Shown in pieces: positions 5,575 through 23,556 of a stretch of 64,000 nt of DNA. The stretch's first letter is position 1, and the number at the start of each line of letters is the position of its first letter. The notes below the pieces were generated by a model that saw only the letters and a list, made by a program, of their open reading frames with translations, did no database searches and was not told where the DNA came from. Made by a program: the position numbers and the translations under genes. The stretch is from Halarcobacter sp. GTDB taxonomy: Bacteria; Campylobacterota; Campylobacteria; Campylobacterales; Arcobacteraceae. The stretch is taken from contig JAQYVX010000010.1 of the NCBI GenBank assembly GCA_030145305.1, forward strand, positions 1-64,000, read 5' to 3'.

Positions 5575-7065
5575 TTAGTTATAAGAAGTTTTATCTTCAA
5601 TATCTTTCGTAATTTCAGGATTGTAAAGACCTTTTTTCTCAGCCTCTTTTTTCCATTCAATTAAAAGACCATTTCTAAATTTCATTTTGTCTTCAACTAA
5701 TTTGTCAAATGGAAGCCCTATAATTTCTTGAGCTTTTTCTTTAGAATCAATTGTTGGTGCAACATAGTCAATTGCTCCATATTTAGCTAATACTTTAGCT
5801 AATTTGATTCTAGCATTTCCAGCTTTTTCTAGAGATGTTCCAAGAATTCTTAAAACTTCTTCAGGTGCATGGAAGAATGCAGGATGTGATGCCACTGTGT
5901 AGTCCCATCTCCATTGAGCATGTCTAATATCTTTTAAGATAGGTGCCATTTCATCTTCAGTTGCTCCAACTTCCCAAGCTTTACCAGCTTCTAAGTGTGC
6001 AGCTGTAATCTGAGTCATAGCTTTTTTATGTAATTCATCTTTTCTATCTCTTTTTTCTTTAACAGTAGCTAATAAAGATTCTTCACTAGTTCTGTGACAA
6101 GTCATACAAGAGTTGTCCATGTTTTCTAAAGGATTTCCAATATTGTGATCTGTATATTTCACTCCACCTTCTCTTTTATATGGCATATGACAATCTGCAC
6201 ACGATACATTGTTTTTACCATGAGCTCCTGTTTTCCACATTTCATAACCAGGGTGTTGAGCTTTTAACATTGGAGTTTTAGAAATCTTGTGTGTCCAATC
6301 TTTAAAGTTTATATTATCATAGTATTTTTCCATATCTTCAACTGAAGTACCTTCAGACCATGGTAAAGTAACAACAGCTGCTTTTCCACCATCTGCTAAT
6401 GGAGTTTTCTTAAAGTAATATTCAACGTGACATTGAGCACAAACCATAGTTCTCATATCTTGATGTGTTACATCTTTAAGACCTTTTTCTCCAGAAGCTA
6501 ATAAACCTTCATTAAGGTAGTTTCTGTTTACTTGTAATTCCATTGTTTCTGGATTGTGACAATCGGCACATCCAATAGGATTGATGATATCTGAACCATA
6601 TTTAGCCCATTTACCAGTATAATATTCCATGTCACCTTTTTCGTCCATTATTCTAGGAACGTCAGGAGATTTACATGTCCAACAGGCAGTTGGCATTGGT
6701 CCAGTTTTTGCATCTGTTGGTGCACCAGTTCTTAGTGAGTTTCTATTATCTTCTATTGCATAGAAGTGACCTCTAGGAGCATTATAATCTTTTGCAAACC
6801 CATATCCAGCCCACAATACAACTAATTCAGGATATTTTTCTAACATATCCTCAATTTTATCACTTTCTCTTGTTTGTTTCCAAGAATCATATTGTCTTGG
6901 ATAGAACTTTTTAAACTCTTCGTTCTTAGTTTCCCATCTGTCCACTTTAGGAACAGCGTTAATCATTTGTTGCTCTTCTTTTTTCTCGTTAATAGATGCA
7001 AGTAGAGCCGTGATACATCCTATTGCAAGTAATGAACCAGCAAGTAAAATTTTATACTTTTTCAT
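5575..7065 (-). CDS. nrfA: Pentaheme cytochrome c nitrite reductase, catalytic subunit NrfA
   Basis: The protein (496 residues, normal for the family) reduces nitrite to ammonium with six electrons in the periplasm. Five heme motifs are visible: CWTCK at 128-132, CADCH at 166-170, CAQCH at 209-213, CADCH at 289-293 and CMTCH at 320-324. The first has the lysine ligand that marks the catalytic heme. Active-site candidates are Arg98 (NAPRGHFY), Tyr216 or Tyr217 just after the third motif, and His271 (AQHPGYEMW). The N-terminus is a signal peptide. It is 12 bp downstream of nrfH, its quinol-oxidising partner. The CWTCK heme needs a dedicated lyase, which fits the CcsBA gene downstream. Confidence 0.97.
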   Translation of the reverse strand: MKKYKILLAGSLLAIGCITALLASINEKKEEQQMINAVPKVDRWETKNEEFKKFYPRQYDSWKQTRESDKIEDMLEKYPELVVLWAGYGFAKDYNAPRGHFYAIEDNRNSLRTGAPTDAKTGPMPTACWTCKSPDVPRIMDEKGDMEYYTGKWAKYGSDIINPIGCADCHNPETMELQVNRNYLNEGLLASGEKGLKDVTHQDMRTMVCAQCHVEYYFKKTPLADGGKAAVVTLPWSEGTSVEDMEKYYDNINFKDWTHKISKTPMLKAQHPGYEMWKTGAHGKNNVSCADCHMPYKREGGVKYTDHNIGNPLENMDNSCMTCHRTSEESLLATVKEKRDRKDELHKKAMTQITAAHLEAGKAWEVGATEDEMAPILKDIRHAQWRWDYTVASHPAFFHAPEEVLRILGTSLEKAGNARIKLAKVLAKYGAIDYVAPTIDSKEKAQEIIGLPFDKLVEDKMKFRNGLLIEWKKEAEKKGLYNPEITKDIEDKTSYN

Positions 7066-7077
7066 CTCTTATTTCCT

Positions 7078-7614
7078 TTACTTCATTCTCTCTTTAACAC
7101 CAATACTATATGGAGTCGATGTTAAACTACGTACTTTGCCATGAGGTGTATACTTATGGCATTCCCAACACTTACGATCAGCATTTAAGCTCATCTCATC
7201 ACCGCTATGATATTTTGCTGCATTAATACCCATAGATTCCGTTAAGTCACTATGACATCTTATACAGTTAGCTTGTACTCTATTTGCACCATCTTCACCT
7301 ATTTGAATATTATTCTTATAAGTATTCATCGTGAATGCTACTGAGTGATTCCATCCGTCAATTGCTTTTGATTTGTATTTAGCTACTACATCACCAACAG
7401 GTAAGTGGCAGTCAATACAACCAGCAACATTTTTGTGCGAACTTTTCGACCAAGTTGTATAAGCTGAATTCATTGTATGACAGTTTATACAGGCCTTAGG
7501 GTCACTCGATAGATATGACAACATATTAGATGCATATACAGTGTAACCAAAAAGACCAATAGCGATTAGAAAACTTAAAATTGATCCATAAACAACAATC
7601 CTATTTCTTTCCAT
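7078..7614 (-). CDS. nrfH: Tetraheme quinol dehydrogenase NrfH
   Basis: A 178-residue NapC/NirT-family cytochrome c. It has one N-terminal membrane anchor (residues about 8-28) and four heme motifs: CINCH, CIDCH, CIRCH and CWECH. In this family the protein takes electrons from menaquinol and passes them to NrfA, with which it forms a membrane-bound complex. It is the first gene of the nrf cluster. It starts at an ATG preceded by AAAGGATTAAGT, and a Crp/Fnr-type palindrome with a class II promoter layout lies directly upstream (7633-7681). No napC is present in the window, so NrfH is the only NapC-family protein here. Confidence 0.96.
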   Translation of the reverse strand: MERNRIVVYGSILSFLIAIGLFGYTVYASNMLSYLSSDPKACINCHTMNSAYTTWSKSSHKNVAGCIDCHLPVGDVVAKYKSKAIDGWNHSVAFTMNTYKNNIQIGEDGANRVQANCIRCHSDLTESMGINAAKYHSGDEMSLNADRKCWECHKYTPHGKVRSLTSTPYSIGVKERMK

Positions 7615-7639: not shown

Positions 7640-7681
7640 AGTATAAAGTTATTTTTATATAAATTTCTTGACGTAGGTCAA
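7640..7681 (-). promoter_or_regulatory. nrf promoter with Crp/Fnr-type operator
   Basis: A perfect palindrome TTGAC-GTAG-GTCAA occupies 7668-7681. A TATACT hexamer lies at 7640-7645 on the minus strand. If that hexamer is the -10 box, transcription starts near 7633 and the palindrome is centred at -41.5, the classical position for class II activation by Crp/Fnr-family proteins. The half-site TTGAC fits FNR-like recognition of TTGAN4TCAA. The same element with the same spacing precedes napA. The palindrome is seen directly; the promoter assignment is inferred from geometry. Confidence 0.8.
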
Positions 7682-8128: not shown

Positions 8129-8584
8129 TTATGAACTAGGCTTTTCATAGGAAATAATTCTAGTATATTCCCCATTTTGTTTTCTAATCTCGTCATATTT
8201 TTTTTGATAGTAAACTTTATCTTCAAATGAGATTGGAACTCTAATAGATTTATATTCTACTAGTTCTGCATTTTTATAAACTCCAGAGATTTCGGCAAAT
8301 ACCCAATAGAAACTAAAGTCTTTTCTTAGATTTTTTACAAACCCTGACCATTTTCCTTTTTCTTCAAGGCTTTCCCATAATTCTTTATAAGTAGATTTAG
8401 GCATATCGGGATGTCTTACTATATTATGAGGCTGTCCAATTAGTTCGTCTACTTCATAACCACTAATTTGTGCAAATGTGTCATTTGCAAAAGTAATAAT
8501 TCCTTTTAAGTCTGTTCTTGAGACAATTAGTTCATCTTTAGGAACACTAACTTCACACAAAAATTCACTTTGATTAAATTGCAT
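8129..8584 (-). CDS. Single PAS-domain protein (Aer/CetB-like) at the end of the nap operon
   Basis: A 151-residue protein that is almost entirely one PAS domain. It shows the Aer-type N-terminal sequence TDLKGIITFANDTFAQISGY followed by HNIVRHPDMPKSTYKELW. In Campylobacterota, free-standing Aer-like PAS proteins such as CetB bind FAD and pair with a membrane chemoreceptor in energy taxis. I chose the ATG at 8582-8584 because AGGA lies 10 nt upstream; a longer frame from 8617 would overlap napD and has no better site. It begins 1 nt after napD ends, so it is almost certainly co-transcribed with nap. A FAD-binding redox sensor tied to nitrate respiration is an inference from family and position. 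Confidence 0.85.
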   Translation of the reverse strand: MQFNQSEFLCEVSVPKDELIVSRTDLKGIITFANDTFAQISGYEVDELIGQPHNIVRHPDMPKSTYKELWESLEEKGKWSGFVKNLRKDFSFYWVFAEISGVYKNAELVEYKSIRVPISFEDKVYYQKKYDEIRKQNGEYTRIISYEKPSS

Positions 8585-8585
8585 T

Positions 8586-8972
8586 TTATTTTCCTGTATT
8601 ATCAAATTGTTTTGCAAAACCCTCTAAGTTTTTCTTTTTAAGGTCACCATTATAAATAATATCTTCTGGTTTTAAATCATCATCATAAAGCATATGAGGA
8701 ACGGCATCTGCGTTTTCTAAAACATCCATATGTTCATTTAACTCATCTTCACTATATGCCATTTGCATATCAGCACTTGCCACATGAGGAATACTTTCTA
8801 TTACTTTTAGTTTTTTTAACTCTTCTGAAACACCTTCTCCTTCAATTGTAACAATAATTCTTCCAATCTCATCATGCATATGATAATCACAAACACCACA
8901 TTTTTTTAAATCTTCTACTACTTTTTCAAGGAATTCTGGCCTTGTTTGTACTACTATACTTGAAATATTCAT
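8586..8972 (-). CDS. napD: NapD, NapA maturation chaperone
   Basis: A 128-residue protein whose first 80 residues match the small NapD ferredoxin-like fold: MNISSIVVQTRPEFLEKVVE, later GRIIVTIEGEG and IPHVASADMQMAY. NapD binds the twin-arginine signal of NapA in the cytoplasm and delays export until the molybdenum cofactor is inserted. The acidic C-terminal tail from about residue 85 is longer than in enterobacterial NapD, as is common in this phylum. It lies 10 bp after napL and 1 bp before the PAS gene. Confidence 0.9.
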   Translation of the reverse strand: MNISSIVVQTRPEFLEKVVEDLKKCGVCDYHMHDEIGRIIVTIEGEGVSEELKKLKVIESIPHVASADMQMAYSEDELNEHMDVLENADAVPHMLYDDDLKPEDIIYNGDLKKKNLEGFAKQFDNTGK

Positions 8973-8982
8973 ATAATTCTCC

Positions 8983-9924
8983 TTAGTTTATTTTCCAATA
9001 ATATACTTCATTATCATCACTTGAAGTATATAATTCTTTTTCATTCTTAAAAAGTATATTCGATAGAGTCATTTTATGACCTCTTAAAGTATATAATTCT
9101 TTTTTACTTTTTGTATCAAATAAAGTAACATCATTTTCTTCATTATTTGCATATCCTGCAATTTTACCACTAGGACTTAATCCAGCACTATAAATTAGGA
9201 ATTCAGCTTTTTTATAATATTGATTAAATTTATCATAAATTGCACAACGTCTATCTTGTCCCGCTGTTATAATAACACCTTTTTTAATATCAACTTGAAA
9301 AATATTATCTACATTTACGCCTGAATATATTTTTTTAAGTTTTCCTGTTTTTGTCTCAATTGCTTTTAAACTACCACTCTCATCAGCAATTATGACTTTA
9401 CTTTTGTCTTCATTTAATGCAAAATCAGAAAACTTTGATTGAGAAACTTGTTTTTCCCAAAGTAATTTTTTTTGTTTAATATCAAATAAGAAAAGTTGAT
9501 TACTTAATAGTGATAAGATTATTTGATTATCATTTATATATTTTGCTTTTGCAATATACATTTTTTTTTCAATTGTAATTAGTGGATTTAATTTTTCATC
9601 TGTATATTCATAAATTTTTCTAAATCCATGTTCTCCTTGAGAAACAATAATTATTCTATCATTCAATACATCAATTGAATAAACTTTTGCATTAATAATA
9701 TCACCTACAAAATCTTTTATTTTAGGCATTTTTATGCTCTTTACTAATTCATGGCTTTGAGTGTCAAAAACATCTACTGCACTATTAGCAGTTGCAATAT
9801 ATAAAAGATTATCTTTTAAGACTAAATCAGTTACTCCACCACTTGCTAAATAAGTGTGAAGAGGTTTTAATTGTTGTGAAAAAAGAAAAGAAAAACAAAA
9901 TATTAGTGAAAAAAGAAGTTTCAT
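8983..9924 (-). CDS. napL: NapL, periplasmic WD40-like repeat protein
   Basis: A 313-residue exported protein with a signal peptide (residues 1-16) and beta-propeller-type repeats, for example YIATANSAVDVFDTQSHELV near the start and YTLRGHKMTLSNILF near the end. A WD40-like napL between napF and napD is characteristic of epsilonproteobacterial nap clusters. Its exact job is not settled; a supporting role in periplasmic nitrate reductase assembly or electron flow is assumed from conservation. It lies 13 bp after napF and 10 bp before napD. Identification rests mostly on gene order plus the propeller-like sequence. Confidence 0.85.
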   Translation of the reverse strand: MKLLFSLIFCFSFLFSQQLKPLHTYLASGGVTDLVLKDNLLYIATANSAVDVFDTQSHELVKSIKMPKIKDFVGDIINAKVYSIDVLNDRIIIVSQGEHGFRKIYEYTDEKLNPLITIEKKMYIAKAKYINDNQIILSLLSNQLFLFDIKQKKLLWEKQVSQSKFSDFALNEDKSKVIIADESGSLKAIETKTGKLKKIYSGVNVDNIFQVDIKKGVIITAGQDRRCAIYDKFNQYYKKAEFLIYSAGLSPSGKIAGYANNEENDVTLFDTKSKKELYTLRGHKMTLSNILFKNEKELYTSSDDNEVYYWKIN

Positions 9925-9937
9925 AATTATCCTTAAA

Positions 9938-10438
9938 TTAGAAATTTATTTCTATAGCATTCGTTGGACAGCTTTTTATACAAAAACCACAAGAAGTGCA
10001 TTTGTCAGATATTATTTCAGGTCTAAACATTCCTAAAAATTCTATTGCATCATCTAAACATGGATCTTTACAAGAAAAACACATTGTTTGATTCCAACTA
10101 AGACACTTTACAATATTAATACTTATCACAGCATTGATTAGTTTCTTATTTTCAATATTTAAAACATCATACTCATCACATGCTTTTGCACATTCATCGC
10201 AGTAAGTACAACCACTATTAGAAAAATCAAGATATGGCGTTTTATCCTGAGCTATTTTTATTATATGTTCTTCACAAAAATTGCTGCATTTTCCATCACA
10301 GTTTATGCAATTTTTGAGAAAATCAGATTCCTCTTTAAAGTATGGCGGTCGTAGTACTTTTCTCTTACTCTCTTCTTTTGAATCACTTTGTTTTGTAAAA
10401 GAAGAAGTAAGAGAGCTAAAAAGCTCTCTTCTTTCCAT
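9938..10438 (-). CDS. napF: NapF, cytoplasmic ferredoxin-type protein
   Basis: A 166-residue polyferredoxin without a signal peptide, rich in cysteine clusters. The C-terminal CTSCGFCIKSCP is a canonical 4Fe-4S motif, CTYCDECAKAC is another, and the CINCDGKC and CFSCKDPC regions are variant sites. NapF proteins are thought to help load or activate NapA in the cytoplasm. The N-terminus RRELFSSL is the NapF-typical start. It follows napB by 3 bp and precedes napL by 13 bp. Confidence 0.92.
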   Translation of the reverse strand: MERRELFSSLTSSFTKQSDSKEESKRKVLRPPYFKEESDFLKNCINCDGKCSNFCEEHIIKIAQDKTPYLDFSNSGCTYCDECAKACDEYDVLNIENKKLINAVISINIVKCLSWNQTMCFSCKDPCLDDAIEFLGMFRPEIISDKCTSCGFCIKSCPTNAIEINF

Positions 10439-10441
10439 AGT

Positions 10442-11044
10442 TTATTTTACACCTTCATTGATATTATCAATTAAGTTTGATCTACTATTTAATCCTTCGC
10501 TTCTGAAATCTCCTTGGAAATTATTTGCAGGAGCTACTGTTTCCATAGATTGTGGAGCATGACATAAAGTACAGTTAAATCTTGTACCCGATAATGCATC
10601 TAAAGATTTACTTGTTGTTTTAAAATCACTTGTATTTTCAACCATCTTCCCATTTTTTACAATACTACCATCTTTTGCTAAAGAAGTATCAGGTCTAAAG
10701 TCTGTAAAATGAGATTTAGGAATTGGTGTTGCATTCATAGCTTCAGCAATTCCAGGAGTATGACAAGATGTACACATATTATTATTAATAGTAATAGGTA
10801 ACATTCCTTCCACACTATGTGAAATCATAGGAGGTGCATTTTCAAATGCTCTTTCAATTAATTTGCTTTCTCCCGCCGCTTTTTGATTATATACTGTTTT
10901 ATCACCAACAGTTGTATCTTCAGTGTATAAATTTGTTTTTCTTAAACCTAAAGATTCTTCGCTTACAGTTTGATTAGCAGTACAACCAGCTGTGAAGATT
11001 GCTGCTGCTGTAAAAAATCCTAAAGCTATATTAGTTATTTTCAT
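10442..11044 (-). CDS. napB: NapB, diheme electron-transfer subunit of nitrate reductase
   Basis: The protein carries two c-type heme motifs, CTSCH (91-95) and CTLCH (158-162), with distal histidines in between. NapB passes electrons to NapA in the periplasm. I start it at the ATG at 11042-11044 because GGAG sits 7 nt upstream; the longer frame would begin at a TTG inside that ribosome-binding site. The N-terminus has a signal sequence ending in FTAGC (Cys21), so it may be lipid-anchored, which is unusual for NapB and worth noting. It overlaps the end of napH by 14 nt. Confidence 0.94.
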   Translation of the reverse strand: MKITNIALGFFTAAAIFTAGCTANQTVSEESLGLRKTNLYTEDTTVGDKTVYNQKAAGESKLIERAFENAPPMISHSVEGMLPITINNNMCTSCHTPGIAEAMNATPIPKSHFTDFRPDTSLAKDGSIVKNGKMVENTSDFKTTSKSLDALSGTRFNCTLCHAPQSMETVAPANNFQGDFRSEGLNSRSNLIDNINEGVK

Positions 11045-11861
11045 TTTCTTCTCCAATTTTTTTATTTCTCAATGTAAATATTAGAGCATCATCATCACAA
11101 ACTTCAATACATCGACCGCAATTTGTACATTCACCAGATAAAACTGGCTTTGTCTCTTTTGCAACCATATGTAAAACTTGCATTTCTGGACAAACTTCCT
11201 TACATTTCATACATGCAGTACATTTATCAGAATCATGATTTACTCTTATTAAACTAAATTTTCCAACAAGTGAATAAAATCCACCTAGTGGGCAAAAATG
11301 ACCACACCAGCCATTTTTTAAAACAAATAAGTCAAAAAGAAATATTACGAGCATTGCTGCCCATCCAAGACCAAGACCAAATATTATTCCTCTATGGATC
11401 ATAGAGATTGGTGAAATAAATTCAAATGCTGTAATTCCTAAAATAACAGATATTATAAGGCTTAAAACAATAGCCCAATATCTGATATTTCTAGAAGCTG
11501 GTTGTTTTTTTTGAATCTGATTGAACCCTAAGACTCTTCTTAAATAGTTTGCTAAATCAGTAATCATATTCACAGGACAAACCCATGAACAAAAAACTCT
11601 ACCACCAACAATTGCATAAAAAGTTAAAATTATAAATGCGCCTATAATTACATCAAATGTTAAAATAGCACCCGCAAAGAACATTTGCGTCACTGCATAA
11701 GGATCGCTTAAAGGAATAAGTCCTAAAAATAATGAAGAACTTAAATTACCCATTAGGATATTAATTCCATAAACATTTGCAATAACATATAAAAACATAA
11801 TCAAAATTTGGGTAAATCTTCTTAAAAATAAGAATCGGTTTTTATATAAAAATTTTTTCAT
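11031..11861 (-). CDS. napH: NapH, membrane quinol dehydrogenase iron-sulfur protein
   Basis: A 276-residue protein with four predicted membrane helices in the first 190 residues. It has two CX3CP motifs on the cytoplasmic side (CSWVCP and CGHFCP) and two C-terminal 4Fe-4S motifs (CTACMKCKEVCP and CTNCGRCIEVC). NapG and NapH together form a quinol dehydrogenase that feeds NapB-NapA. In nap clusters without napC, as here, this is the expected electron entry route. It overlaps napG by 4 nt and napB by 14 nt, suggesting translational coupling. Confidence 0.95.
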   Translation of the reverse strand: MKKFLYKNRFLFLRRFTQILIMFLYVIANVYGINILMGNLSSSLFLGLIPLSDPYAVTQMFFAGAILTFDVIIGAFIILTFYAIVGGRVFCSWVCPVNMITDLANYLRRVLGFNQIQKKQPASRNIRYWAIVLSLIISVILGITAFEFISPISMIHRGIIFGLGLGWAAMLVIFLFDLFVLKNGWCGHFCPLGGFYSLVGKFSLIRVNHDSDKCTACMKCKEVCPEMQVLHMVAKETKPVLSGECTNCGRCIEVCDDDALIFTLRNKKIGEENENN

Positions 11862-12718
11862 TTTAATAAATCCTCCAATCCGCTATTTAAAGTATCTACT
11901 GCTTTGTTTTTGCTTCTTTCTGTTGTTGTAATCTCACTTGTTGCATTTTCTAATCTTTTTTCATCATCTTTATCCCAACCTTTGATATAGTAATCACCAG
12001 CATGACCCAGTGCTATTTCTCTTGGTAGAATAAAAATAGAGGCTTTTTCAGTTACACATGCTTTTTCACAAAGACCACATCCAGTACAAACATCACTATT
12101 GACAACAGGTTTCATGAAAGCATGCTTCCCTGTTCTTTTATTTTTTGTATATTCAATAGTAATAGCTTCACCTAAAAGTGGGCAGGCTCTATAACATGCG
12201 TCACACTGAATTCCCCAAAATGCAATACAATTTGTTTGATCAACAATTGCAACACCCATATCAGCTTTATTTATATCTAACTTTTTATTTTCACCTGATA
12301 CGCTCAAGATATCCAAAGCTCCTGTAGGACATACAGGAACACAAGGAATATCAGGACACATATAACAAGGAATATCTCTTGGAATAAAATATGGTGTTCC
12401 TAAAGGTTTATTATCGCCTGGTTTAGCAAGGCTTAATGTATCAAAAGGACATGCTTCAACACACATTCCACATTTGATACAAGTGCTTAAAAAATCTTCT
12501 TCTTTTAAAGCTCCTGGAGGTCTTAATGTTAATTTTGAAGCAGAAACTTCACTAACATAAGCGCTCCAAGTAAGCCCACCTAGTGTTGCAAGACCAACTG
12601 ATCTTGCAATATCTAGGAAGAATCTTCTTCTCTCGCTAATAGGTTGTTTTTTAGTTACACCACTTTTCATCTTTTTTTCCAACTTTTGTTTTTCTTTATG
12701 AGGATTAATATTGCTCAA
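11858..12718 (-). CDS. napG: NapG, periplasmic 4Fe-4S ferredoxin of the quinol dehydrogenase
   Basis: A 286-residue protein with a twin-arginine-type region (SERRRFFLDIARSVGLATLG) at about residues 28-47 and four ferredoxin-like cysteine clusters: CIKCGMCVEACP, CYMCPDIPCVPVCP, CIAFWGIQCDACYRACP and CTGCGLCEKAC. NapG accepts electrons from NapH at the periplasmic face. The long basic stretch before the RR motif is somewhat unusual; a shorter start is not obvious from ribosome-binding sites. It lies 19 bp after napA and overlaps napH by 4 nt. Confidence 0.95.
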   Translation of the reverse strand: MSNINPHKEKQKLEKKMKSGVTKKQPISERRRFFLDIARSVGLATLGGLTWSAYVSEVSASKLTLRPPGALKEEDFLSTCIKCGMCVEACPFDTLSLAKPGDNKPLGTPYFIPRDIPCYMCPDIPCVPVCPTGALDILSVSGENKKLDINKADMGVAIVDQTNCIAFWGIQCDACYRACPLLGEAITIEYTKNKRTGKHAFMKPVVNSDVCTGCGLCEKACVTEKASIFILPREIALGHAGDYYIKGWDKDDEKRLENATSEITTTERSKNKAVDTLNSGLEDLLK

Positions 12719-12737
12719 AACAATATACCCTCCTTAT

Positions 12738-15548
12738 TTATGCTTTATAAATTTTTACAGCACATTTTTTAAAGTCAGTTTGTTTTGACTGTGGACAAGT
12801 CGCATCTAAACATACTTTATTGATAAATACTTTTTCATCAAACCAAGGTACAAATACAAGTCCTCTTGAAGGTCTATTTCTTCCTCTAGTTTCAACTCTA
12901 GCTTTTACTTTTCCACGTCTAGATTCAACCCAACAAAGACCACCTTGTTTAACATCATATTTTTTTGCATCTTCAGGATGCATATAACATAATGCTTCAG
13001 GAACAGCTCTGTATAATTCTGGAACTCTCATCGTCATAGTTCCTGAATGCCAGTGTTCTAATACTCTACCTGTACATAACCATGCTGGATACTCAGCATC
13101 TGGAACTTCTGGTGGATCCATATAAGGACGAGCAAAAATTTTAGCTTTATTTTTAAGTGATTTTTTAGCTTTATCTTTTACACCTAATAAATCACCTTGA
13201 GATAGTGCTTTAGCTAATGTTCCATAGAATGCGAAATCACTATTTGGACTAGCTTTTTTTGCATAAGGGTCATATTTAGTATTAAATCTCCATTGAGTTT
13301 CTTTACCATCAACAACTGGCCATTTTAATCCTCTTACTCTATGATAAGTATCAAAGTCAGCTAAATCATGTGCATGACCTCTACCAAATTCTGCATACTC
13401 TTCAAATAAGTATTTTTGAATAAAGAATCCGTAACCTTTCCATACTTTTCCATCTGAACCAACAACATTTCTGCTATCTCCATAACCTTCTGAGTTATCA
13501 TATCCAGCTTGAATTGGATCATCTTGGCTTAGTTTGTAAGATTTAGCTTTTTCATTAGCAAATAGAATATCAAACATTGTAGTGTCTTCTGTATATCCCA
13601 TTTTCTTAGCTTGAGCAATTACATCTGGAAGTTTTTTCTTATTTCCTGTACTTAATAGACCTTGTTCGCTCCATAAGTCTTTAACAGTAAATCTTTTTGA
13701 AAGTTCAACCCATTGCCATGTATCAGACATAGAATCACCAACAGGAATTACTTGTTGTCTCCAATGTTGAGTTCTTCTTTCAGCATTTCCATATGCTCCC
13801 CATTTTTCATAAATCATTGCAGATGGTAAAATTAAATCAGAAACTTTTGCAGAAATACCAGGGTATCCATCAGAAGTTACGATAAAGTTATCCATTTCTC
13901 TAGCAGCTTTTAACCAGTGAGTTGCAGATGCTGTATCTTGGTAAGGATTACAAACATTTACCCATGCAAATTTCATAGTACCATCTTCAAGGTCTCTATG
14001 AATTTTCATAATATGTTGGTGACCTTTTGGATTTAAAGTACCTTCTGGAATTTTCCATGCATTTTCTGTAATTTTTCTATGTTTTGGATTTGCTACCATC
14101 ATATCAGCTGGTAATCTATGTGCAAATGTTCCAACTTCTCTTGCAGTTCCACAGGCACTTGGTTGTCCTGTAAGTGAAAATGCACCAGAACCTGGTTTAG
14201 CTTGTTTATTTAATAAGAAGTGAACGTTATAAGCTAAAGTATTAACCCATGTTCCTCTTGTATGTTGATTCATTCCCATAGTCCAGAAAGATACAACTTT
14301 TCTATTTTTTTCAATATATAAATTAGCTAACTCTTGTAACTTAGCTTTAAATTCATTGATATCTTCATCAGGATTACCTTTTGAAATTTTTGCAACATAA
14401 TCTAAAGTATATGGTTCTAAGAATTTTTTATACTCTTCAAAAGAAATTTCCCAGTGTTTTAAACCAGCAGGTTTATTAACCATTTTATCGCCAGCTTTAT
14501 ATCCATAAGGTTTAAGTGCAGGTGCTTCAGTCTCAGAAACAACTTTTACCATTTCTTTATCAATAATTTCCATTTCAGCTTTTGAATATTTTCCATCAAC
14601 TAATGATTTCTCACCAGCTCTTCTTAATCCATAACCCATATTAACTGGACTTGCTGCAAAAACGATATGTTCTTTTACAAAATCCCAATCAATTGATTCA
14701 GGTGCATTATATACGATTTCTCTTGCAATATAATTCCATAAAGCTAAGTCAGTATTTGGAGTAAAAATAATTTCACTATCAGCTAAATCTGAAGTTCTAT
14801 GTCTATAAGTTGAAATATTAATAACTTTTACATTTTTTGGATCAGATAATTTTCTATCAGTAACTCTTGACCATAAAATAGGGTGCATTTCTGCCATATT
14901 TGATCCCCAAGATACGATAGTGTCAGTTAACTCAATATCATCATAACAACCAGAAGGCTCATCAATACCAAATGTTTGATAGAAACCAACAACAGCAGAT
15001 GCCATACAGTGTCTAGCATTTGGATCAATTGCATTTGATCTAAATCCAGCTTTCATCATTTTTTGAGCTGCATATCCTTCCATAACAGTATATTGCCCAC
15101 TTGCAAATACTCCAATACCTTCAGGTCCAGAAGCTTTAAGCGCTTTTTTTATGTGAAATTCCATTTCATCATAAGCTCTTTCCCAAGAAACAGGAGCGAA
15201 CTTACCATTTTTATCAAACTTACCATCAGCACCTATTCTTAATAATGGTTGCTTTAATCTATCCGCACCATACATAATTTTAGCATTGAAGTAACCTTTA
15301 ATACAGTTAAGTCCTCTATTGACAGGAGCCGCAGGGTCCCCTTTTACTGCAACAATTTTACCACCTTTTGTAGCTAGCATAATACCACAACCTGTACCAC
15401 AGAATCTACAAGCTGCCTTGTCCCATCTCCAGCCACCTTCAGCATTTTTAGCTGCTGCTTGCATTTGTGTAGGAACATTCATCCCTACCGCTGCTGCTGC
15501 AGAAGCTGCTGCTGAACTTTTAAGAAAATCTCTTCTTGAAAGTGCCAT
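12738..15548 (-). CDS. napA: NapA, periplasmic nitrate reductase catalytic subunit
   Basis: A 936-residue molybdopterin oxidoreductase, the length expected for epsilonproteobacterial NapA. It starts with a twin-arginine signal (SRRDFLKS, residues 4-11). The 4Fe-4S ligands are Cys47, Cys50, Cys54 and Cys82. The molybdenum ligand is Cys181 in [19 protein letters not shown]. The enzyme carries a bis-MGD cofactor and reduces nitrate to nitrite, receiving electrons from NapB. It is the first gene of the operon, with AAGGAG upstream of the ATG, and a regulatory palindrome precedes it. moaA for the cofactor lies 7 kb away in the window. Confidence 0.97.
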
Positions 15549-15578: not shown

Positions 15579-15620
15579 ATTCTATCACTTAGCTAATACA
15601 TAATCTTTGACTTTAGTCAA
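15579..15620 (-). promoter_or_regulatory. nap promoter with Crp/Fnr-type operator
   Basis: A perfect palindrome TTGAC-TTTA-GTCAA lies at 15607-15620. A TAGAAT hexamer on the minus strand occupies 15579-15584, with its centre 32 bp from the palindrome centre. This gives the same -41.5 class II layout as upstream of nrfH, with transcription predicted to begin near 15572, 24 nt before the napA ATG. The identical half-sites and identical spacing at two respiratory operons make a shared Crp/Fnr-family activator likely. Confidence 0.82.
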
Positions 15621-20179: not shown

Positions 20180-20806
20180 ATGAAATTAAAAGATATATAT
20201 CTATTTGAAGGCTTAGACGAAGATACATTAAAAAAAATTGAAGCTATTTCAAGTATAGAAAAACTAAATAAACACAATATTCTATTTTATGAGGGGGATG
20301 AACCACAATATTTATATATACTTTTAAAAGGAATTATAAAGCTTTATAAAGTAACCTCTGTGGATAAAGAACTTGTTTTAAAATATTTTCATGAAAATGA
20401 GTTTATAGCTGAAGTTGCAAATTTTGAAGAGATAAATTACCCAGCAACAGCTCAAGCTTTTTCAAACATAGAAGTTCTAAAAATTGATTTTATAAAATTC
20501 AAAGAAGAAATTTTATCGAATCCAAGTTTATCTTTTTTGATTACTAAATCACTAATCAATAAAATTAGAAATCTTGAAAACTTAGTATCCATGCATTTAG
20601 TTTTGGATTCAAAAGAAAGAGTTGCAAAATATATTTATGAAAATCCTGAAGATTTTTTTATTACAAAAAATGTAATAATTGCTGAGATTTTAAATATCAC
20701 TCCTGAAACTTTATCAAGAATTTTAAGAGTTTTTAAAAATGATGACTTGATAGATACAAAAGAGAAAATAGTAAATAAAGTTGGTTTGAAAGCTTATTTT
20801 AGCTAA
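20180..20806 (+). CDS. Crp/Fnr-family transcription regulator
   Basis: A 208-residue protein with a cyclic-nucleotide-binding-type beta barrel at about residues 5-115 (LFYEGDEPQYLYILLKGIIK), a dimer helix and a C-terminal winged helix. The recognition helix ITPETLSRILRVF has the E-SR pattern used by FNR-like proteins to read TTGA half-sites. It has no cysteine, so it cannot hold an FNR-type iron-sulfur cluster, and the residues that bind cAMP phosphate are not evident. It is transcribed alone and converges on the PilJ-sensor/Crp pair. It is one of two candidates in this block for the regulator that binds the TTGAC-N4-GTCAA operators of nap and nrf. Confidence 0.88.
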   Translation: MKLKDIYLFEGLDEDTLKKIEAISSIEKLNKHNILFYEGDEPQYLYILLKGIIKLYKVTSVDKELVLKYFHENEFIAEVANFEEINYPATAQAFSNIEVLKIDFIKFKEEILSNPSLSFLITKSLINKIRNLENLVSMHLVLDSKERVAKYIYENPEDFFITKNVIIAEILNITPETLSRILRVFKNDDLIDTKEKIVNKVGLKAYFS

Positions 20807-20828: not shown

Positions 20829-21851
20829 CTAGAGTTTTCCTTGGTTATTAATACTAACATTTTTTGCTGCACTAATTAGCTTATCAAGTTCAGATTTCAA
20901 TTCTTGAAGTTTTTGAGTTGAACTTATAAGCTCTTCAGTTGTTTCAATAACCATATCTTCACTTTTGTCAAGTTGCTTTGAGACTTCTGTAGAATGATTT
21001 AACTCTTCAATTACTTTATCAAATTCATCTGTAATTTCTTCAAGTTTCATTGAAGCATTTCTAGATTGTTCTATAGCTTCTGCTGAATAACCCATCGCTG
21101 AGTTAACTTTATTTATAAAAGCATTTAGAGTATCAGTAGCCTGGACAATCTCAACTTCTGCTTCTATTTGAATAGGCTCTAAGTTGTCCATGTCTCCATG
21201 CATTAATTTTTGAGAATATTCAAGAAATTTATTTGCATTGTTCTCTATCGCTTTTAGTTGAGATAGACTATATAAAAACAGAAGTATAATTATAGCAATA
21301 AAGACATATTGAAAGTATTTTATTGTTTCAGTTTTATTTTCACTATAAATTGTATACATAGTTACAAGATTGTCAACTTCTTGTAATAAGTTGTTGTTTG
21401 TATTATAGATTGCATTTACATAACTTTTTATAAGAACTTCATTTTGTGCATTATTTCTTATTGATAAAAGTTTTTTAAATTGATTTACATTATTATCGAA
21501 TGTATTCCATAGAATATCAATTTTCGTAATCTGATTAAAAATAGAATCAGTAGGTGCCTTTGGCATGCCTGTTAATTTATTTCCATCTCTCAAAGAGTGA
21601 AGATTATAAATAAACTCCTCTTTTGCAGAATCAAGTTCATTTGTATTACTTGAATTGTTATGATATAAATAAAAAATATTCTTAGATATCCTTTGTGTTA
21701 ACATTCTTTCTTTTCCCGCAATATTAATAACAAATGCATCTTTTTTATTTTTTGCATTTAAATATATTGTGGTTCCAACAATAAGTAGCATTAGTAAAAT
21801 GAAAAATGCTCCGATGATTTTTATTTTTGTTCGTATAGTATTTGTTGTCAT
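20829..21851 (-). CDS. PilJ-type membrane sensor without an output domain
   Basis: A 340-residue protein with a membrane helix at about 11-31, a periplasmic helical domain, a second helix at about 178-198, then a HAMP-like segment and a coiled coil to the C-terminus. The periplasmic domain opens with NIAGKERMLTQRISKN, matching the PilJ/NarX-type ligand-binding domain that senses nitrate or nitrite in NarX and NarQ. There is no kinase, GGDEF or chemoreceptor signalling hairpin. Its start overlaps the end of the upstream Crp/Fnr gene by 4 nt, so they are co-translated. A role as a nitrate/nitrite sensor acting through that regulator is an inference from domain and context. Confidence 0.82.
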   Translation of the reverse strand: MTTNTIRTKIKIIGAFFILLMLLIVGTTIYLNAKNKKDAFVINIAGKERMLTQRISKNIFYLYHNNSSNTNELDSAKEEFIYNLHSLRDGNKLTGMPKAPTDSIFNQITKIDILWNTFDNNVNQFKKLLSIRNNAQNEVLIKSYVNAIYNTNNNLLQEVDNLVTMYTIYSENKTETIKYFQYVFIAIIILLFLYSLSQLKAIENNANKFLEYSQKLMHGDMDNLEPIQIEAEVEIVQATDTLNAFINKVNSAMGYSAEAIEQSRNASMKLEEITDEFDKVIEELNHSTEVSKQLDKSEDMVIETTEELISSTQKLQELKSELDKLISAAKNVSINNQGKL

Positions 21852-22525
21852 ACGCCAACTCCTCTGAAAGTTGAAAAGAGCATCTCTTTATTTAAAATTT
21901 TTACATTTCCTTCATTAACTTCAATTATATTGTTTCTTGAAAGTCTTTTTAATACTCTAGAAAGAGTTTCAGGTTGAATATGAAGCATGAAAGAAACTTC
22001 TTGTCGTTTAAGTTTATTGAACATTTCTAAGTCATCATTTAGCATAAATGCGACTTTTGCAGTAGCATCAAATACTAGTTCTCTATTTACTATAGATTGT
22101 AATTGGTGTGTCTTTTTAAGTAAAGTATTCATTAGTTTTATTGTTAAAATATTTTTTTCTAAAAAGAATTCTTTAAATTTTTTGTAATCAATTGTAAGGA
22201 CAGCTGAATCTTCTTTAAACTCAGCATTTGAAAAACAATAAATTCCGTCATCTTCTAATCTTGTTAATTCAGAAATCATGGAGTTTTCATGAATATGATA
22301 AAGAAATATTTCATTATCAAATTTATCCAATTTATAAATCTTAATTAATCCAGAGACTAAAAACATTATTTGTGTATTTATATCACTTTCATAATAGAGT
22401 ATAGACTTCTCAGGATAAGTGACTACATTAGAGATAGATGTTAATAATTCTACTTGTTCATTACTTAGTTCATCAAAGAAATTTATAGACTTAATAGTAT
22501 CTTGAATAATGATTTCACCTTTCAA
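21848..22525 (-). CDS. Crp/Fnr-family regulator coupled to the PilJ-type sensor
   Basis: A 225-residue Crp/Fnr protein: a beta-barrel sensor domain at about 10-125 and a winged helix whose recognition helix reads IQPETLSRVLKRLSR. It has one cysteine only (Cys97, IYCFSN) and therefore no Fnr cluster. It is only distantly similar to the regulator at 20180, although the recognition helices nearly match (PETLSR), so both may read the same TTGA-type half-site. It is followed by the membrane sensor with a 4-nt overlap and is divergent from moaA (62 bp apart). This context points to control of nitrate respiration genes. Confidence 0.88.
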   Translation of the reverse strand: MKGEIIIQDTIKSINFFDELSNEQVELLTSISNVVTYPEKSILYYESDINTQIMFLVSGLIKIYKLDKFDNEIFLYHIHENSMISELTRLEDDGIYCFSNAEFKEDSAVLTIDYKKFKEFFLEKNILTIKLMNTLLKKTHQLQSIVNRELVFDATAKVAFMLNDDLEMFNKLKRQEVSFMLHIQPETLSRVLKRLSRNNIIEVNEGNVKILNKEMLFSTFRGVGV

Positions 22526-22587
22526 AAAAGTTTTTGTTTAAGGAATTTTATAATATGCTAACGAAATTTTTAATTAAGTAGGTCAAA

Positions 22588-23556
22588 ATGTTAGTTGATG
22601 GATATGGAAGAAAGGTTGATTACTTAAGAGTTTCAGTCACAGAAAGATGTAATTTTAGATGTCAATATTGTATGCCAGAAAAGCCGTTTTCTTGGGTTCC
22701 CAAAGAGAATTTACTCTCATATGAAGAACTCTTTAAATTTGTCAAAGTTTCAATCGATGAAGGAATTACGAAAGTTAGGATTACAGGTGGTGAACCACTA
22801 CTAAGAGAAGGCCTAGAAAAGTTCATAAAGATGATTTCAGAATATAAAGAAGGTATTGATTTAGCTCTTACAACAAATGCTTACTTGCTTCCAAAAGCTG
22901 CGCAAAAGCTTGCTGATGCAGGATTGAAAAGAATAAATGTTTCATTAGATTCTTTGCAAGATGCGGTGGCTGCAAAAATTGCTCAAAAAGATGTTTTAAA
23001 AACAGTTTTAAAAGGTATACAAGCAGCTTCTGATGCAGGATTAAAGATAAAAGTAAACTGTGTTCCTATGAAAGGAATAAATGACGGTGAACTTGTAGAT
23101 ATACTAGAATACTGTAAGGAAAAAGGTTATCCTGTAAGATATATTGAATACATGGAAAATAAGCATGCTACTGATATTGCAAAAGGACTTAATTCAGATG
23201 AAATAAAGGCGATTATTGCAGAAAAGTATAAGTTTAAAAAACTAGAAAGAAGTGGAAGTTCACCTTCTCAAGATTATGAAACAGAAGATGGATATGTTTT
23301 TGGAATAATTGAACCACACAAAGATGACTTTTGTGCTACTTGTAATCGTATTCGATTAACAGCAAGTGGAGTTTTAATTCCTTGTTTATATTTTGAAGAT
23401 TCTCAAAGTATTAAAGCAGCTATTCAAGCAAATGATATTGATAAAGCAGCTTCAATTCTAAAAGATGTTTTAGCAAATAAACCTGAAAAAAATAAGTGGT
23501 CAGAAGCAGATGGAACAGAGACTTCTTCTCGAGCATTTTATGAAACTGGTGGCTGA
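22588..23556 (+). CDS. moaA: GTP 3',8-cyclase MoaA
   Basis: A 322-residue radical-SAM enzyme that makes the first intermediate of molybdopterin from GTP. The SAM cluster ligands are Cys21, Cys25 and Cys28 (CNFRCQYC), with [10 protein letters not shown] as the second radical-SAM signature. The C-terminal cluster is carried by [18 protein letters not shown]. The protein ends in the double glycine that is essential in this family. It is divergent from the Crp/Fnr-PilJ pair, and the cofactor is needed by NapA. Confidence 0.97.

Follow-up and report, generated by a model that had tools for sequence, protein, structure and literature searches.

A transmitter-less PilJ-type sensor co-encoded with a Crp/Fnr regulator in Halarcobacter: a candidate nitrate receptor for Nss-type regulation in Campylobacterota

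Described nitrate-responsive systems

NarX and NarQ of E. coli combine a periplasmic four-helix nitrate domain carrying a P-box with transmembrane and HAMP segments, and replacement of the arginine by lysine gives a ligand-insensitive protein (PMC8199190). The Halarcobacter membrane sensor analysed here has this nitrate domain, P-box and TM plus HAMP layout in common with them, but lacks the DHp/CA kinase part as well as NarL/NarP, and has a Crp/Fnr regulator as its cognate partner instead. McpN of P. aeruginosa likewise possesses a PilJ domain with an N-box, whose arginine hydrogen-bonds nitrate and whose R61A exchange abolishes binding (PMC6381276). In contrast to McpN, our sensor has no MCP signalling domain, and an E replaces the Q of the N-box.

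According to excerpts of PMC6682613, Campylobacterota are without FNR, ArcA and NarP-type regulators. In W. succinogenes, nap, nrf and cnos are controlled by the Crp/Fnr regulators NssA, NssB and NssC via the operator TTGA-N6-TCAA (Kern and Simon 2016, as relayed in excerpts of PMC8139620 and PMC6682613), the gene targets and operator being those to which we relate our regulator below. In these excerpts, however, NssA, NssB and NssC are described as regulators alone, with no co-encoded sensor mentioned, and according to the 2021 review it has yet to be discovered how the three proteins sense nitrate, NO and N2O (PMC8139620). The excerpts of PMC11539149 use the same operator as Nss consensus and report a nap-linked Crp/Fnr gene of N. 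labii that is 44.8% identical to NssA. The sensor gene goes unmentioned in the portions of the Nss literature surveyed; it could be mentioned in the original description of the Nss regulators (Kern and Simon 2016) or in the paper on the S. denitrificans genome. A literature search for a PilJ/Crp pair returned nothing relevant. The nearest functional precedent found is DnrST with DrpAB of Thermus thermophilus, in which separate envelope proteins confer nitrate responsiveness on DnrS/DnrT (excerpts of PMC6282519). DrpAB are nevertheless encoded by different genes, for a periplasmic and a membrane protein, and these excerpts contain no pointer to a PilJ receptor. The pair described below is a concrete candidate for the nitrate receptor of Nss-type regulation, and may answer how Campylobacterota sense nitrate and nitrous oxide.

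The sensor, the regulator and their surroundings

The window, i.e. the whole 64-kb stretch of DNA that was analysed, encodes on its minus strand a 225-aa Crp/Fnr regulator (21848..22525) and, directly downstream, a 340-aa membrane sensor with an ATG start (20829..21851). The stop codon of the former and the start codon of the latter share the letters ATGA, in agreement with the 4-nt overlap noted by an earlier, sequence-only reading of this locus. Pfam assigned a PilJ domain to sensor residues 30-125 (PF13675, E 9.3e-17), returned no match above cut-off for kinase, MCP, GGDEF, HAMP or a HisKA_3/HATPase transmitter, and recognised no domain past the second membrane helix. Since neither domain is present, a fragment of an MCP or of a kinase was rejected as an identity for this protein, which the sequence-only reading had correctly taken to be devoid of both. 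The sensor is the sole PilJ protein found by a genome search, and a domain search of the same genome found no NarX/NarQ-type HisKA_3 kinase, in keeping with the prior suggestion of a one-step response in place of a NarXL relay.

In an AlphaFold2 model computed with 22 relatives, the periplasmic bundle and the membrane part reached a pLDDT of about 80-92, and the cytoplasmic hairpin 40-60. Foldseek against the PDB returned NarQ entries as the first six matches (best 5jgp, E 9.7e-6; TM 0.78 on target over 252 aligned columns spanning sensor, TM and HAMP), followed by McpN (6gcv), which together with PF13675 places the sensor within the PilJ/NarX-like four-helix fold. The HAMP-like coil proposed earlier thus fared unevenly, as it has no Pfam match, whereas the model aligns with NarQ through HAMP. 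TM1 comprises approximately residues 12-32 (21756-21818, minus strand), and TM2, a hydrophobic run within model helix 135-218, approximately residues 179-199 (21255..21317, minus). The P-box or N-box segment NIAGKERMLTQRISKN, already recognised in the sequence-only reading, covers residues 43-58 (21678..21725, minus), and the family profile aligned it with the nitrate-binding segments INIAGSLRM of NarQ and TINVAGAQRMLSQK of McpN. It contains the nitrate motif G-x-x-R as G46-K-E-R49 (R49 codon at 21705-21707, minus). From the strict N-box (PMC6381276) it deviates at one position, Q to E (K-E-R versus x-Q-R), which lies outside the listed McpN contacts G58, A59, R61 and M62. The strict N-box is present in 38 of 47 napA-linked relatives, and G-x-x-R is retained by every nap/nrf-linked relative except one poor-quality MAG sequence (L020). 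Judged by sequence and fold, this protein is a NarQ/McpN-type PilJ sensor without kinase or MCP output, and nitrate is its predicted ligand.

The regulator combines cNMP_binding and HTH_Crp_2 domains, i.e. the beta-roll plus HTH_Crp architecture of the Crp/Fnr superfamily. It contains one cysteine, C97, and therefore cannot hold an FNR-type four-cysteine Fe-S cluster, which bears out the earlier description of the protein as cluster-less. C97 is located in the beta-roll, is invariant among 50 paired regulators, and might represent a redox or NO site. The recognition helix QPETLSRVLKRL (E-x-x-S-R; 21941..21976, minus) includes P185-E-T-L-S-R190, invariant in the same number of regulators. With nap linkage and a TTGA-N6-TCAA operator at nap, the protein qualifies as Nss-type, and probably belongs with NssA as described in Wolinella succinogenes. 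At locus L103, whose genome we take to be W. succinogenes, the pair is located upstream of napA. Genomes G263, G403, G226 and G221 of our survey are presumably W. succinogenes, S. denitrificans, S. autotrophica and Sulfurospirillum deleyianum, respectively.

As the sequence-only reading had observed, the pair lies next to moaA (22588..23556, plus strand; TIGR02666, 354 bits), a divergent neighbour 62 bp away that adjoins the pair in many genomes, and close to nap and nrf, with the napA start at 5.3 kb and the nrfH start at 13.2 kb. All of these respiratory genes are on the minus strand: napA for the periplasmic nitrate reductase (12738..15548; TIGR01706, 1367 bits) within a nap cluster at approximately 8129-15548, nrfA for the ammonia-forming nitrite reductase (5575-7065; NF008339, 712 bits), and nrfH, identified by position and operon order (7078-7614). 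The operator TTGAC-N4-GTCAA singled out earlier occurs in two perfect copies in the window, against about 0.05 expected, one being TTGACTTTAGTCAA (15607..15620), 59 bp from the napA ATG, and the other TTGACGTAGGTCAA (7668..7681), 54 bp from the nrfH ATG. Across loci, TTGA-N6-TCAA lies no more than 250 bp ahead of 53/60 napA, 20/20 nosZ and 2/7 nrfH genes, compared with 0/13, 0/7 and 2/118 for control genes and with 0.036 sites expected as background in a 250-bp stretch. Control of nap and nrf by the paired regulator through TTGAC-N4-GTCAA is accordingly a probable assignment by sequence criteria. The regulator's own promoter and moaA were also considered as operator carriers and rejected, the site occurring in only 20/118 and 6/34 loci, respectively; here, the gap between both genes (22525-22588) holds no operator within one mismatch.

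The pair across Campylobacterota and its nosZ-linked sister

Our genome-level survey covered Campylobacterota, in which the sensor profile matched 145 of 397 genomes. Within the Arcobacteraceae, PilJ was detected in 85/104 genomes, mostly as an ORF of ~335 aa without transmitter. In the loci analysed, practically every full-length member of the sensor family follows directly on the regulator gene, most of them with a 4-nt overlap. Such gene pairing is far beyond chance and recurs throughout the phylum. In many genera the pair immediately precedes napA and in some it lies downstream of nap, it adjoins nrfHA in Sulfurospirillum-type genomes, and tandem double-PilJ sensors exist in several families. 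The sequence-only reading had named absence of the pair from nitrate-respiring relatives as grounds for giving it up; instead, napA is present in 79 of 81 sensor-bearing Arcobacteraceae genomes (Fisher p 3e-4) and less than 30 kb from the sensor in 66 of the 68 cases in which a single contig carries the two. Phylum-wide, 139 of 145 sensor-bearing genomes encode napA (p 9e-8). By gene context and operators the pair is tied to nitrate and, as detailed below, N2O respiration. The interpretation given in the sequence-only reading is thereby partly supported; overlooked in it were this phylum-wide occurrence, a nosZ version lacking the nitrate site and the probable NssA-type identity of the regulator.

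Two observations count against regarding the pair as a receptor-regulator unit. First, the sensor was undetected in 16 Arcobacteraceae genomes that have nap; therefore, nap does not strictly require the unit and other routes exist. Second, a paired-type regulator stands beside napA without a sensor in one clear case (G069), although this regulator itself has diverged; where the remaining sensor-negative genomes tested possess a paired-type regulator, it lies at a contig end, goes with a broken sensor or is part of a nos-type pair. In G069 (L183) the regulator and napA point away from each other, a perfect operator lies in between, and the otherwise invariant C97 is replaced.

The pair is also plasmid-borne. 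On pSULKU01 of Sulfuricurvum kujiense (L148, NC_014754.1 56170-75072), nap genes, Crp/Fnr, sensor and moaA are compact and co-directional, and the nap cluster in addition contains a PAS-domain gene, so that it possibly constitutes a transferable nitrate-respiration unit. A search of plasmid records, aimed at occurrences beyond the phylum, matched only this true pair of Sulfuricurvum and a Salinibacter chemoreceptor.

A paralogous pair is found at most 150 bp upstream of Sec-dependent clade II nosZ (TIGR04246). In its sensors R49 is changed to K in 19/19 (among them L088, L104, L114 and L128-L139) and G46 to N in 89%, whereas the flanking T52, Q53, I55 and K57 are kept. Because these nos-type sensors fall mostly into one clade, the contrast is good but the evolutionary events behind it are few. 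They are candidate receptors for N2O or another signal connected with nosZ, which would be of interest for the control of a greenhouse gas. A further pair of this nos-type occurs in an Arcobacteraceae genome with nosZ and without detected napA (G051; L165/L184). As an exception, G085 (L076/L185) harbours a nitrate-type pair directly upstream of nosZ, with napA 36 kb off, an apparent re-wiring. In G407 (L162:7913-8885), the nosZ-linked sensor extends over two frames, owing to a broken gene or a sequence error, and the nap-linked copy is intact.

Possible signalling from sensor to regulator

We propose that receptor and regulator work as one unit encoded by both genes. On the periplasmic side, nitrate, possibly also nitrite, would bind at the P-box where two PilJ domains meet, and would shift the TM and HAMP-like helices in a NarQ-like manner, upon which the conserved coiled-coil tail would act on the co-made Crp/Fnr protein and not on a kinase. 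We favour a regulator that is held or allosterically gated by the tail via its effector (beta-roll) domain, and that would activate nap and nrf from TTGAC-N4-GTCAA. Taken as a whole, a nitrate-bound periplasmic dimer whose tail directly gates an NssA-like activator is a plausible mechanism and, in our estimation, a fairly probable one, with contact, ligand and direction of control as its inferred elements. If true, a membrane receptor would work on a transcription factor by contact, without phosphorylation. The operator at nrfH in only 2/7 loci and the low pLDDT of the tail (40-60) both count against it.

The proposed regulator-contact module is the cytoplasmic tail, residues 251-335 (20847..21101, minus), with the core SEDxxIxSxExLxxSxxKLxxLKxxLxxL, of which ED..I.S.E.L..S..KL..LK..L is common to nap- and nos-type sensors. 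Its retention in the nos-type, where the nitrate residues are lost, is as expected if the tail served both versions as output and the periplasmic part were a changeable input. With napA distances removed, tail distances followed those of the regulator more closely (partial r 0.82) than did the periplasmic domain (0.63), and for the N-terminal domain of the regulator the values were 0.77 and 0.41, all from 29 loci that are non-independent data. From indirect evidence, namely the constant pairing, the gene overlap, the joint duplication and this correlated divergence, we infer that the tail acts directly on the regulator. The nosZ unit, with its tail kept and its nitrate arginine lost, would probably respond to another signal, perhaps N2O. 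A more tentative generalisation, to which we give somewhat less than even credence, is a phylum-wide class of enzyme-less one-step receptors, in which the shared tail gates a Crp/Fnr protein and an interchangeable domain reads nitrate (nap/nrf) or, after the R to K exchange, N2O or another denitrification signal (nosZ).

Alternatively, the regulator might sense a signal of its own, such as NO or another small molecule as in DNR and NssR, the sensor being a separate regulon member that signals elsewhere, e.g. to chemoreceptor arrays or a kinase encoded at another locus. Among relatives with a solved structure, the NO sensor DNR is indeed the nearest to the regulator in sequence, and the invariant C97 would fit such a role. 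Yet sensor and regulator move jointly, the nosZ locus included, paired-type regulators almost never occur without a sensor, and the tail bears no MCP or kinase signature. When its profile was run on six genomes, the strong matches were these sensors only, the one other being a weak coiled coil, and no MCP was matched. We therefore deem this alternative unlikely, though it is the best of the competing explanations. That weak tail match, in a Wolinella-like genome (1060791, E 0.002), was discarded because the coiled-coil protein is unrelated and no Crp/Fnr gene adjoins it.

The regulator profile recovered just two proteins from the genome, the paired regulator and a second Crp/Fnr protein encoded in the same cluster (20180-20806, plus strand), which falls outside the clade of sensor-paired regulators. 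Its recognition helix has the identical letters E-T-L-S-R, and hence the operators single out neither protein; it may share them with the paired regulator. Conceivably, then, this second protein mainly owns the operators and the control of nap and nrf, leaving the pair a minor or different role. In most Campylobacterota loci, however, it is the paired regulator that sits at operator-bearing nap and nosZ promoters, and we hold such a division of labour to be quite improbable. Weakest of all, and slightly less credible again, is a split two-component system, with a histidine kinase or phosphatase recruited in trans by the tail and the Crp/Fnr gene a mere neighbour. Docking of a kinase on the helical hairpin is conceivable in principle, and other kinase types probably exist in the genome, but HisKA_3 was not found there and the Crp/Fnr regulator is the constant partner gene.

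Throughout the genus Halarcobacter the regulator has no ATG start and uses TTG or GTG (22500-22525 here, where the TTG is a mechanically assigned start). A weak regulator start ahead of a strong, coupled sensor ATG would leave the sensor in excess. At L019 (9330 region), ATG, GTG and TTG are all absent before the conserved part and an AGGTG motif is present, which suggests an ATT or ATC start for this regulator.
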